From positions 248,001 to 312,000 of the forward strand of contig NZ_BCNY01000014.1 of the NCBI RefSeq assembly GCF_001602375.1: a DNA stretch of 64,000 nt, read 5' to 3'. Within the stretch, counting starts at the first letter, position 1, and each line of letters starts with the position of its first letter. A model generated the notes under the pieces. It did not search any database and was not told where the DNA came from. It worked only from the letters and a program-made list of their open reading frames with translations. Position numbers and translations under genes: made by a program. Below are positions 13,107 through 44,133 of this stretch, in pieces. The stretch is from Methanoculleus horonobensis (GTDB taxonomy: Archaea; Halobacteriota; Methanomicrobia; Methanomicrobiales; Methanoculleaceae).

Positions 13107-13514
13107 ATGTGTCGGTATAAACATATTGAACGGAGTATCGGGGAGTATATCGCTGCCCGGTATCGTCGGGCCGTCGAGGTGGGCATCGGCAACAATCCCG
13201 AGGCCGCAAGGCTGGTCCGGGCCGCCGGCGCCCTGATGCTCTGCACTGACGTTCGATCGGGCATCCGGCACGACGGGCTCGACGTCGTGACCGACGACGT
13301 CTTTGAACCGGATCTCCGGCTGTATGAGGGTGCGGATCTCATCTACGCCGTGAGGCCCGGCGTGGAGATGGTTCCGCCGCTGATCGCGCTTGCCGACCGG
13401 ATCGACAGCGATCTCCTGGTCTACCACCTGGGATGCGAGATCTACGGGAACGGCGGCGAGGTCGTGGACTGCGGCCCGGTTCTCCTTCATCGGTATCGCC
13501 GGCGGGTAATCTAA
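13107..13514 (+). CDS. UPF0146 family protein
   Basis: A 135-residue protein of the archaeal UPF0146 family: HIERSIGEYIAARYRRAVEV, EVGIGNNPEAARLVRAAGAL, CTDVR and DDVFEPDLRLYEGADLIYAV are a compact Rossmann-like layout resembling a small SAM-binding domain, without a clear catalytic site. The start ATG 13107 keeps the conserved N-terminus and no ribosome site precedes it, so a leaderless transcript is likely. It ends 311 bp before the convergent rfcL gene. Confidence 0.82.
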   Translation: MCRYKHIERSIGEYIAARYRRAVEVGIGNNPEAARLVRAAGALMLCTDVRSGIRHDGLDVVTDDVFEPDLRLYEGADLIYAVRPGVEMVPPLIALADRIDSDLLVYHLGCEIYGNGGEVVDCGPVLLHRYRRRVI

Positions 13515-13534
13515 GCCTCTTCCGATAGCCCCCA

Positions 13535-13657
13535 CCCCGCCCGGCCTTCGGCCTCCTCACCCGCACCTGTGGTGCCTCAACTCCGCTCCTAACGGAGCGT
13601 CGTTCCCCGCCCCTCGGGGCGGGGGCAGTGCGTGGCGATAGCCACGGGAAATCCGTG
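13535..13657 (+). repeat. serial-hairpin element, copy A
   Basis: Five small perfect hairpins lie in a row: 13543-13553 (GGCC stem), 13563-13575 (GCACC), 13584-13599 (CGCTCC), 13605-13624 (nine-pair GC stem) and 13631-13646 (CGTGGC with GATA loop). A related element with the same order and linkers, but different bases in several stems, occurs at 32122-32247. It sits between the 3' ends of two convergent genes. No protein is supported here. Nature unknown: structured RNA, or a MITE- or IS-derived relic. Confidence 0.6.
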
Positions 13658-13672
13658 CATGTGCTTTTTTCA

Positions 13673-13752
13673 GGGTTGCCCATGCAGTGGGCCTTGGGAA
13701 TACCGCTATTGGGAGGGGGGGCCGCCCCCTCTACCTCCTGCTTGGGCAACCC
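13673..13752. repeat. 80-bp element with 15-bp inverted ends
   Basis: GGGTTGCCCATGCAG at 13673-13687 is matched in inverse at 13738-13752 with one mismatch. Inside is a seven-pair GC hairpin (13713-13731). A further imperfect hairpin follows, GTTCTTCCCG with CGGGAGAAC. Part of the interior (about 13685-13712) resembles 31882-31912 near the second copy of the hairpin element. Together with copy A this accounts for the 311-bp gene-free interval. Confidence 0.5.
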
Positions 13753-13825
13753 GGGTTCTTCCCGGCAATACGGGAGAACATTGTGCCCACCCCGACAAGC
13801 GCCAAAAATTTGAAAATACGGTGTT

Positions 13826-15190
13826 CTAGAAGAGCGTCGCCTGGCCCGGGGGGGGATCCCGCCTGGATTCACCGGTATCGGCGGGCGGGTCGTCGTCCCG
13901 GGACTTCTTGCCTTTTCCGGTTGCCTTCTCTTTGGCGGAGGCCTTCTTTTCCTTTGCCTTCTCCTCTTTTGCCACGTCTTTGACGACCTTCGCGGCCCGT
14001 GATTTGTCGTGGATGAAGAGGTTCAGTTCGTCGGCATCGAGTTCGAATTCGCGGACGTATGTTGCAGGGTCATGTTCGACGAGGATGCTGATCGCGGTGA
14101 AGAAGTCTTCCCGGAGTGCATCCACTGGAATGTGCGTCATCTCGCTGAGTTTCCGGGAGAGGCCCGCCCGAACCGCCTTTTGCTTCTTCGACGCCCCCAT
14201 CTTCTGCCAGCGCTGCGGCGGCATGATGCGGCCGTGGATGCCGTGCCCGCCGGCGGCGTCGGCGACGCCGATGAGCATCACCGCGCTCGCGTAGCGCCAG
14301 AGGGTGTAATACTGCCGCCGGTAGGTCCGGCCGATGTACTCGTCCGCCCTCGCGAGGCAGGCGTAGCCTTTCGCCCGGGAGGCGAGGTCGGGCATGTGGT
14401 CGAGGTTCCCCTCGAGCCACTGCTCGACGGCGTCGGGGGTATCCTCGACCTCCACCGCCATGCGGAGCAGATCGGCATCCCTCTTCCCTTTGAAGGTCGC
14501 TCCGACGAGTTCGAAGATGGTCGAGCGGTCATCCTTTGCGGAGGTGTGGACGTCGCCCGCCGCGACGTGCTCCTTCCCGATGGCCACGGCGTAGAGCATG
14601 TTCACCGCGGCCCGCATATCGCCGTCGGCGCGGTTCGCGATCTCGTCGAGCGCGGCGGGATCGCATGTGACGCCTTCCGCAGCGCAGATCTGGCGGAGAC
14701 GGGGGACGATCGAGCGGGCCTGGAGCGCCCGGAACTGCACCGGCTCCGTGACCGCCTTGAGTTCTCTCGTGAGGGAGTAGTAGTCGTTTGCAATCAGGAT
14801 GATCGGCTGCTGCGCCGCCGCGATGATCTCCACGATCGCCTTCGCCCCGCCCCGGTCGGCCTGTCCGTGCAGGTTGTCGGCCTCATCCAGCAGGATGAGT
14901 TTGCGGCTCGCACCGGAGAGGCTGGCCGTCGTGGAGCCCGCGCCCGCTACCCGTTCGAGGGCCGCTTTCGTCCGCTGGTCGGAGGCGTTCAGTTCCACCA
15001 CCTCCCAGTTCATGTCGTTCGCGAGGGCGTGTGCGCTCGAGGTCTTGCCGGTGCCGGGTTTTCCGTACAGGATGAGCGGTTTCTTCTGCCGTGACCAGTC
15101 CCGCGCCCACTCGTATATCAGCCTGACGGCGCTGGAGTTCCCCACGACATCCTGAAGATGCTGCGGCCTGTACTTCTCCACCCAGTCCAT
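13826..15190 (-). CDS. rfcL: replication factor C large subunit
   Basis: A 454-residue AAA+ clamp-loader subunit that loads the PCNA sliding clamp. Walker A is [17 protein letters not shown] (residues ~43-59), Walker B is [12 protein letters not shown], and the sensor region LIANDYYSL follows. The C-terminal third is Lys/Glu-rich, and the protein ends in GQATLF, a PIP-box-like tail for PCNA binding. Start MDWVEKYRP is the canonical RFC N-terminus. The small subunit is not in the window. Confidence 0.95.
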
Positions 15191-17364: not shown

Positions 17365-17571
17365 ATGGCAGATCTACCTATTGCTGCGGTTGTACGTATC
17401 GCAAAGAAGAATGGTGCTGAGAGAGTCGGCAGCGACGCCGCTGCCGCACTGGTTACCAAGGCTGAGGCGTACATCGCCGAGCTGACCAAGGAAGCCAACA
17501 GGCTTGCCCAGCACGCGGGACGCAAGACGATCAAGGCGGAAGACGTCGACCTCGCGGTTAAGTCCGCGTAA
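17365..17571 (+). CDS. archaeal histone
   Basis: A 68-residue histone-fold protein that wraps DNA as dimers and larger stacks. The fold starts LPIAAVVRIAKKNGAERVGS, continues through ALVTKAEAYIAELTKEANRL, and ends with the DNA-binding GRKTIKAEDVDLAVKSA. Length equals the family norm and there is no tail. It has its own promoter and ribosome site, and is followed by a pyrimidine-rich tract with CTTTTCTTTCC that probably ends transcription. Confidence 0.96.
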   Translation: MADLPIAAVVRIAKKNGAERVGSDAAAALVTKAEAYIAELTKEANRLAQHAGRKTIKAEDVDLAVKSA

Positions 17572-17942
17572 GTCGGCCTTTTCTTTCCTTCTCTTTACCG
17601 GGGTCCATATGGGCCCCACTTAACATTTCATCCCGGCAGCATACCTGCCGGAGGTCCGGACGGGTTATTGTTCTTCTCAGGACGGTATCGTGACCGACTG
17701 CCGGGATAACGAGAATCGAGGGCGGGAGGACGTGGAGAGCGTCGGGTACTGAATCCCTGCGAGTCCGACAGGCCGCCGATGCATGTCAGACGCTCATATC
17801 TGCGATCTCAGCCATGTTATGCCCCTATTCCGTGAACATTTACGCCCGTTGCATACGAGAGGCCCTACGGGCTGATGCGTCGCTCCCGGACGACGGTTGC
17901 CCGTGCTCCGGGATAAAAAAAGGATGCTTCTTCGGTGGGGGG
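17572..17942. other. gene-free interval with hairpins
   Basis: No coding frame is convincing in these 371 bp. Directly after the histone is a T-rich tract (17575-17600). A near-palindrome GGGGTCCATATGGGCCCC follows at about 17599-17616. A seven-pair hairpin CCGGCAG/CTGCCGG is at about 17634-17652. A stem TCCCGGA/TCCGGGA at about 17883-17912 precedes, on the minus strand side of hisB, a run of seven T residues that reads as the his-operon terminator. Confidence 0.5.
17917..17928 (-). terminator. T-tract terminator of the mat-his operon
   Basis: On the minus strand, directly after the hisB stop, the sequence reads CCTTTTTTTAT, then a GC hairpin. A T-run is the usual archaeal termination signal, and no gene follows on this strand for several kilobases. 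Confidence 0.5.
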
Positions 17943-31587: not shown

Positions 31588-32121
31588 TGGTCTCTCCATC
31601 CGTATGTGGATGTGTAGTCTTCACGCTATCGGTATATAGTATTGTCGAAAATCGGGGGGATTGTTATACTTTGGTAGTAATTTCTACGTCCTTTTTGTTC
31701 TTATGGGGGTGATCGGCTGCGGGATGGCCGGGTGGTTGGGGATGGATTTCTTCTAGAGTGATTCGATGTGGGTGTCAGGGCGGCGGGGGGATATGTGAGC
31801 ATCACGGCCTGACTATCGGAGTCCACTGTGGCGCTCGTTCTGATTGCAACTGCTGGAACATAGGAGTTGCCAACAATTCCGATGCACTGGACCGTGGGAG
31901 TATCGCGTTGGGGGGAACGACTGCCGGAATGGCGGGAGTTCGAGATACCCGAAGGGTTTCGCTGTGGGGACAGGGGAGTGTGATGTTCCGCAGGAGCGGA
32001 GCTCGAGAAGAATGAAGTGCTTCAAGGGAGCGTGCCTCCCGTCTCTACCTCACGAAAGGACATCTGTAACCCCCACTCGAAGACCCGTGGTCTTCTCGAG
32101 CTCCGGACGTCCCGTCCGTCG
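31588..32121. other. gene-free interval before hairpin copy B
   Basis: Upstream of the binding-protein gene. The first ~90 bp contain AT-rich promoter-like sequence (ACTATATACC on the minus strand, about 31630-31640). From 31758 to 32015 a plus frame of 85 codons is open but has no recognisable family and odd composition (Gly/Arg/Cys-rich). The stretch 31882-31912 resembles part of the inverted-end element at 13.7 kb. Hairpins AAGACC/GGTCTT (32080-32094) and GGACG/CGTCC (32105-32117) begin the array. Confidence 0.4.
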
Positions 32122-32247
32122 CACCTCGCCCGCGCTTCGCGCTCCTCCTCCGCACCTTCGGTGCTCAAACTCCTGCTGTTCCAGCAGTTGTTCCCCGCCC
32201 AAGGGGGCGGGGGCAGTCATGGCGATAGCCGGTGGGAAGCCGTGTCC
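32122..32247 (+). repeat. serial-hairpin element, copy B
   Basis: Same layout as 13535-13657: hairpins at 32131-32141 (CGCG), 32152-32164 (GCACC), 32173-32187 (CTGCTG), 32193-32212 (CCCCGCCC), then a conserved GGCGATAGCC at 32221-32230. Linkers such as GGGGGCAGT and the GGGAAnnCGTG end are shared with copy A, whereas stem 1 and stem 3 have different bases that still pair. It lies upstream of argH. Confidence 0.6.
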
Positions 32248-32456
32248 CGGGAGCGAGTCCGTATACGGGTTTATGATGTTTCGAAATGTGGCCGCTAAAC
32301 ACCAGGTTCTTGAAGATATCGCAGAACCTCGAGTATAAACATGAGTATTGCGAGTGTGGCGATTCAAAGAGCCAGTGCATCGTCATCTCCTCCTCCTCCC
32401 GGGCGTGGTTTTAATCTCTCCAGGGGTCAAACGGTACAGACAGGACTGTTGATATA
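32248..32456. other. argH upstream region
   Basis: No gene is seen. A TATA-like TTTTAAT at about 32408-32415 lies 42-49 bp before the argH ATG, and a weak CAGGA precedes the start. The rest shows nothing I can support. Confidence 0.4.
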
Positions 32457-44048: not shown

Positions 44049-44133
44049 GCGAGGGTAGCCAAGCCCGGCCAAAGGCGGTGGACTTAAGATCCACTCCCGA
44101 AGGGGTCCATGGGTTCGAATCCCATCCCTCGCA
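44049..44133 (+). tRNA. tRNA-Leu (anticodon UAA)
   Basis: An 85-nt class II tRNA. The acceptor stem GCGAGGG pairs with CCCTCGC, with discriminator A. The anticodon stem is GTGGA/TCCAC with loop CTTAAGA, so the anticodon is TAA (Leu). A long variable arm (CTCCCGAAGGGGT-like) and T-arm ATGGGTTCGAATCCCAT are present. CCA is not encoded. A 4.4-kb accessory segment starts immediately after it. Confidence 0.95.

Follow-up and report, generated by a model that had tools for sequence, protein, structure and literature searches.

Two strings of small hairpins lie far apart in the 64,000-nucleotide stretch of the Methanoculleus horonobensis genome analysed here (the window), and they raise the question of why stems that differ between two copies of one structure remain paired. 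A first-pass annotation had taken such compensated change to imply selection on structure, and had named a non-coding RNA family, an IS200/IS605-type guide-RNA relic and a hairpin MITE as candidates. Both strings were recovered at 13535-13657 and 32122-32247, with the hairpin order and linkers that it described. On the forward strand, stem 1 reads GGCC-TTC-GGCC in copy 1 (13543-13553) and GCGC-TTC-GCGC in copy 2 (32132-32142), and stem 3 reads GCTCC-TAAC-GGAGC (13585-13598) against TGCTG-TTC-CAGCA (32174-32186); all are paired, as had been claimed. Stem 2 is GCACC/GGTGC in both copies (13563-13575 and 32152-32164) and differs only in its loop, TGT versus TTC. A GC-rich hairpin 4, located by inverted-repeat search, follows on the same strand, with arms CCCCGCCCC/GGGGCGGGG at 13605-13624 and CCCCGCCC/GGGCGGGG at 32193-32212.

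The copies themselves are real, but the limits drawn around them proved too narrow. Alignment to congeners (query 805 to 1128) delimited an insertion of about 322 bp at 13505-13826 of the forward strand, between the convergent genes for a UPF0146 protein (plus strand, to 13514) and an AAA+/clamp-loader-like protein (minus strand, from 13826). TCTA reads at both junctions of this one site, and the left arm of the copy is shortened. The inner repeat GGCGATA and then a terminal repeat termed beta, GGGAAATCCGTGCATG, occupy 13634-13662 (plus strand), while a degraded second end of the alpha type, CATGCAGTGGGCCTTGGGAATACCGC, lies with a G-rich hairpin inside the same insertion (13679-13735, plus strand). 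At locus 2, which is intergenic and upstream of argH, the element runs from alpha to beta over about 31881-32248 (plus strand; 31885-32245 in the end-pattern search, core on the plus strand), beginning with the alpha terminal repeat GATGCACTGGACCGTGGGA and an inner TATCGCG (31881-31908) and closing with GGCGATA and the beta terminal repeat GGTGGGAAGCCGTGTCC (32221-32248), both on the plus strand. The argH sequence has 92% identity to its counterpart in a Methanomicrobiales MAG, which together with the published G-rich motif discussed below pointed to Methanoculleus as the genus.

The hairpin inventory of copy 2 was likewise correct as far as it went, and the covariance-model search that had been proposed added three further modules made of stems 2 and 3, two of them reversed. 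These lie at 31916-31953 (minus strand, E 1.5e-7), at 31979-32012 (minus strand, E 5.6e-7, with an imperfect stem GCTCC/GGAAC) and at 32076-32123 (plus strand, GAAGACC..GGTCTTC / GGACG..CGTCC, E 1.2e-10). Together with the modules of copy 1 (13560-13604, plus strand, 38 bits, E 2e-13) and copy 2 (32149-32192, plus strand, 60 bits, E 2e-22), the window thus holds five modules at E<1e-6.

The anatomy of the whole element was taken from an alignment of about 29, later about 100, copies, in which the originally described 123 bp form the right-hand core of something longer. The full order is CATGCAGTGGACCGTGGGGATATCGCCATTGGGGG-AGGGGCTGACGGGGAGGGGGG-loop-CCCCCCTCCCCTGTCTCTACC-variable-TGTAACCCCCACC-core hairpins-GGGGGCAGTGCGTGGCGATA-GCCGGTGGAAAGCCGTGCATG. 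Imperfect terminal inverted repeats, alpha CATGCAGTGGACCGTGG and beta CACGGATTTCCA, bound the element, and TATCGCC/GGCGATA makes a second, inner inverted-repeat pair. Element length ranges from about 90 to 460 bp or more, the alpha and beta ends being 91 to about 460 bp apart in most elements. The simplest carrier is an imperfect palindrome of about 107-125 bp with an alpha end and no core (L240, L246); a G-rich palindrome or hairpin sits within the carrier, and the core hairpins often extend it. Most full copies contain the G-run motif GGGGAGGGGCTGACGGGGAGGGGGG..CCCCCCTCCCC with a CTGAC/ACA central loop and a 3' C3TC3 tract. Alpha ends number 44 in the genome under study (G000), 22 on each strand, and 41 in the congener G003, as compared with 1 and 2, respectively, for the reversed-pattern controls. 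A single alpha end, a single beta end and a core were present together in 52 elements, of which 48 had the order alpha-core-beta and 4 the opposite order. The elements are intergenic and have no coding capacity.

BLAST searches with copy 1 and copy 2 found at least 56 and at least 57 places, respectively, in the 2.45-Mb genome (E<=1e-3), so the two strings are members of a large interspersed family and not a lone pair. A DNA search found the repeat in all 18 other Methanoculleus genomes; the 12 genomes searched from elsewhere in the order, representing 10 genera, gave no match. In most Methanoculleus genomes the covariance model gave at least about 50-67 modules, and in two it gave few (4 and 7). 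Outside the genus it gave 50 in a single genome from another genus in the family, and 1-7 here and there in other families, where some of the genomes are incomplete MAGs. The phage and plasmid records searched gave no match to the repeat. A single pattern match in viral contigs lay within a GC-rich coding repeat and was taken as chance.

The repeat was then followed at orthologous sites in Methanoculleus congeners (G numbers other than G000). Locus 1 is empty in at least eight of them, the flanking gene ends lying 5-13 bp apart at the stop-codon junction of the convergent genes, while G000, G015 and G011 share the same insertion. The junction carries a different hairpin element in G003 and G006 and two elements in G012. 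Similarly, site c (L100) has an element in G000, G003 and G015 and none in G006, G012, G005, G008, G017 or G001. Differences inside the element are just as discrete. Of the three orthologous copies at locus 1, only that of G000 has the double-hairpin module, which G015 and G011 lack, and G015 has GCGC as stem 1 where G000 and G011 have GGCC. At site a, G006 and G015 differ by a clean 45-bp module and G003 and G011 by two modules, with few other changes in either pair, and the interior is inverted in G000 relative to G006 and G015 between shared outer flanks. Over about 190 bp at site b, G000 and G006 have identical sequence; the main difference between them is the adjoining module, and such identity next to a differing module is the expectation for conversion or replacement. 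The locus 2 interior is partly reversed among G000, G006 and PGYH. Gain or loss steps of modules at orthologous sites measure 45-48 bp, and a gain within a core could reflect gene conversion from another core, or the difference a precise loss. Presence and absence of elements and modules, the stem swap and the interior inversions are thus observed directly, as are copy number, ends and nesting. Elsewhere in the window, BLAST aligns through 17674-17938 in G006 and not in most other congeners; this segment is downstream of a short gene (17366-17572) resembling an archaeal histone.

These observations bear on the possibility that no transposition is involved, the hairpin repeats having spread solely through template switching at replication and through ectopic gene conversion. 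These processes account for homogenised hairpin arms, for inverted spacers and interiors and for conversion-like patches (PMC8794818, PMC8604942). Alone, however, they leave unexplained the defined alpha and beta ends and the clean presence or absence of whole elements at new intergenic sites, and we consider this reading unlikely. Of the candidates in the first-pass annotation, it is the third, a hairpin MITE, that fits: the family is multi-copy and non-coding, its terminal inverted repeats are imperfect, and its members are present or absent at orthologous sites.

One unit of about 45 bp, (Y)TCG-stemA-TCNNNCTCC-stemB-[G/A]TCG-(CA or TT), comprises stems 2 and 3 and the linkers around them; the linkers are fixed and the stems, mostly 5 bp, are variable but paired. 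Both module orientations occur inside one element. Some modules stand in tandem (L112, L113), and others are nested within the loop of another module's hairpin (L099, L115, L116). Pyrimidine-rich flanks were found on the same strand at 142 of 147 modules, a pattern that suggests polar insertion of the modules; target duplication at the junctions is ambiguous (0-3 bp). Longer arrays were also seen, namely a tandem double-hairpin array of 87-bp period at about 1434-1960 of L112 and nine consecutive 45-bp module matches at G050:C1:1923558-1923961. A different hairpin-repeat family, CTTCGCGGCTTCGCG / TCACGCGAAG, carries double-hairpin modules as well (L119 and L122, which are locus 1 of G003 and G006, and L144 and L146).

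Is the pairing then maintained as that of an RNA? In favour of a structured non-coding RNA family with pairing under selection, covariation across 25 distinct modules of equal length scored 0.398, the shuffles averaging 0.115 (0 of 500 as high). Of the cells, 95.2% were paired against 78.1% in shuffles, again with 0 of 500 shuffles as high. All five pairs of stem B (stem 3) vary, with changes on both sides, and 20 different perfect B stems were found. Folding z-scores against shuffles were -3.05 for copy 1 and -2.48 for copy 2 on the strand first described, and -3.52 and -1.92 on the opposite strand. Other properties argue against an RNA. Rfam 15 at gathering score gave no match to the repeat, its sole match in the window being a tRNA (44049-44133). 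Modules lie on both strands of one element, and at orthologous sites the stems change together with the whole module. Wobble intermediates were few and there was no G-T excess on the strand first described that would be an RNA signature, mismatches on that strand being 6 G-T versus 7 A-C in A stems and 4 versus 15 in B stems, counts that are small and come with imperfect loop assignment.

The loops point in the same direction. Counted over distinct combinations of stem, loop and linker, three-base loops read TNC in 82 of 108 cases, as compared with 10 of 118 control hairpins from the window, and four-base loops read TNNC in 29 of 41 against 7 of 125, the cases not being phylogenetically independent in either comparison. 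On the opposite strand TNC and TNNC are GNA and GNNA, loops that are unusually stable in single-stranded DNA. Just 4 of 29 satisfy GNRA, most four-base loops being neither GNRA nor UNCG, and the rule is the same whether stem B closes with C (36) or G (21) and is therefore not the RNA UNCG rule. Judged by their sequences, the module loops fit the GNA/GNNA rule of single-stranded DNA hairpins and not the GNRA rule of RNA.

Placement relative to genes was compared with that of a published G-quadruplex motif. By our own gene calls, convergent genes flank 20 of 41 cores, co-directional genes 16 (9 oriented with the pair and 7 against it) and divergent genes 5; the earlier report gives 50/39/11% for the same three classes and no orientation preference (PMC8044849). 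Random orientation to genes in both data sets speaks further against an RNA family, which we regard as very unlikely. The excess at convergent genes could instead mean that the repeats are bidirectional transcription terminators or 3'-end mRNA stabilisers kept for the benefit of the host, and strong GC hairpins do act in both directions. However, the sites are not conserved between species, neutral insertion that avoids promoters and coding regions would give the same distribution, and nested modules and flipped interiors are unnecessary for termination. This explanation seems improbable, and an effect on host transcription at the 3' ends of convergent genes, if any, would be secondary.

The above findings change how the compensated differences are to be read. 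Template switching homogenises hairpin arms and inverts spacers, for which selection is not needed (PMC8794818, PMC8604942), and modules are gained, lost and swapped whole at orthologous sites. The compensated changes are real, but exchange of modules and template switching can account for them, and they are no proof of selection on an RNA; that they imply selection on structure, as stated earlier, does not follow. For the most part, the matching base changes probably reflect exchange of DNA modules and not a conserved RNA gene. Either process, module exchange or template switching, could operate alongside selection for a DNA substrate able to fold.

Profile searches of G000 gave 0 matches to OrfB_IS605 (PF01385), Cas12f1-like_TNB (PF07282) and Y1_Tnp (PF01797), with controls positive for the last. 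No transposase linked to the alpha/beta ends was found among the IS200/605-type families searched, and the alpha-end loci without a core, searched for an autonomous relative, held short elements or neighbouring genes only. These results also bear on the proposal that the repeat is an IS200/IS605 (TnpB) relic, that is, a right end or omega-RNA scaffold. TnpB is common in relatives, and hairpin 4 resembles GCCCCGCCCTTCAGGGCGGGG at tnpB 3' ends; at L199 a tnpB end is fused into the core at this hairpin. The likeness to tnpB 3' ends, which the first-pass annotation had suggested looking for, is nevertheless confined to one CCCCGCCC hairpin, beyond which core queries match L199 alone among ten tnpB loci. 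Moreover, a genome with at least 56 places of the repeat has none of the three domains, and G002 has 10 TNB matches but 7 core matches. A relic of this kind is thus extremely unlikely. In the fusion itself (L199, G015 contig C48, about 1314-1420), a tnpB gene end meets the repeat at the CCCCGCCC hairpin that both possess, an arrangement that insertion of an IS200/605 element into the repeat, or recombination between the two, would produce. In four congeners, the orthologues of window positions 31700-32400 or so (L137, L140, L142, L147) contain about 3 kb that includes a reading frame for a P-type ATPase of the heavy-metal type, and in three of these four the 3' remnant of a tnpB gene lies close to the argH side, as does an alpha end.

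Taken together, the data make it probable that the repeat is a composite mobile DNA element that is specific to the genus, non-autonomous and MITE/REP-like in character. It would be built on two levels. The first is a palindromic carrier with alpha/beta ends, inner TATCGCC repeats and a G-rich hairpin, which may be moved by an enzyme acting in trans. The second is the double-hairpin module of about 45 bp (CG-stemA-TCNNNCTCC-stemB-[G/A]TCG), which would insert with polarity into carrier C-runs and the loops of other modules and may spread by way of hairpins that the GNA-loop strand forms as single-stranded DNA. Pairing in the stems would persist because modules are exchanged whole, by insertion or gene conversion, and because template switching copies arm onto arm; selection for a foldable hairpin substrate perhaps helps. 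A bolder idea, which we hold only tentatively and think rather less likely to be right than wrong by some distance, is that the double hairpin of about 45 bp is a class of archaeal mobile unit in its own right. It would need no transposase of its own and would spread as folded single-stranded DNA of the strand with GNA/GNNA loops, being captured with polarity into C-runs and hairpin loops as DNA is replicated. Stems would then be free to change, since only the fold, the loop ends and the linkers would be recognised.

Among known systems, the composite repeat is like a MITE in being short, non-coding, multi-copy and intergenic, with imperfect terminal inverted repeats and presence or absence between species, and differs in its nested double-hairpin modules and its interior inversions; no parental transposon was found among the IS200/605-type families and core-less alpha-end loci searched. 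Its short GC-rich palindromes and mosaic arrays recall REP/BIME, RAYT and GTAG- or CGTC-tagged palindromes, and some REP-like families insert in larger palindromes or have no dedicated transposase (PMC3733652). Unlike these, the genome has no Y1/RAYT and no GTAG tag was seen; a RAYT-REP system was rejected, given that PF01797 has no match in G000. CGTC-tagged palindromes have a CGTC tag and a stem of 8-9 bp, whereas the modules end in [G/A]TCG and have stems mostly of 5 bp (PMC3733652). No Methanoculleus REP or MITE was found in the open-licence literature. The module comes closest in form to the double-hairpin or repetitive hairpin-forming elements of fungal and sponge mitochondria, in which two adjacent small hairpins make one interspersed intergenic unit with a scattered distribution, tandem copies and no known enzyme (PMC2800124). 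The likeness is a structural analogy that does not imply homology, and the present modules differ in their archaeal chromosome, fixed linkers, variable stems and larger carrier.

The nearest published relative is from the same genus. The repetitive potential G-quadruplex sequences (rPQS) of Methanomicrobiaceae, reported in 2021, have central loops CTGAC, GCA, ACC or ACA and a 3' C-tract, and their G-runs, CTGAC/ACA loops and C3TC3 tract are those of the G-rich palindrome of the carrier (PMC8044849). Their placement, intergenic, mainly convergent and free of orientation, also agrees with that found here (PMC8044849). In the parts of that report consulted, they are treated as isolated G4s or hairpins of about 30 nt, and there is no description of a larger element, terminal repeats, modules, presence/absence or mobility (PMC8044849).

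If the composite reading is correct, the published Methanoculleus G-quadruplex repeats (PMC8044849) would be one part of a mobile composite element, and their placement need not mean regulation. The family would also be a clear example of strong covariation arising at the DNA level, which counsels caution in discovering RNA families from covariation alone. The module would be a prokaryotic counterpart to the organellar double-hairpin elements, and with many sequenced congeners, its insertion, stem swap and inversion can be traced site by site.
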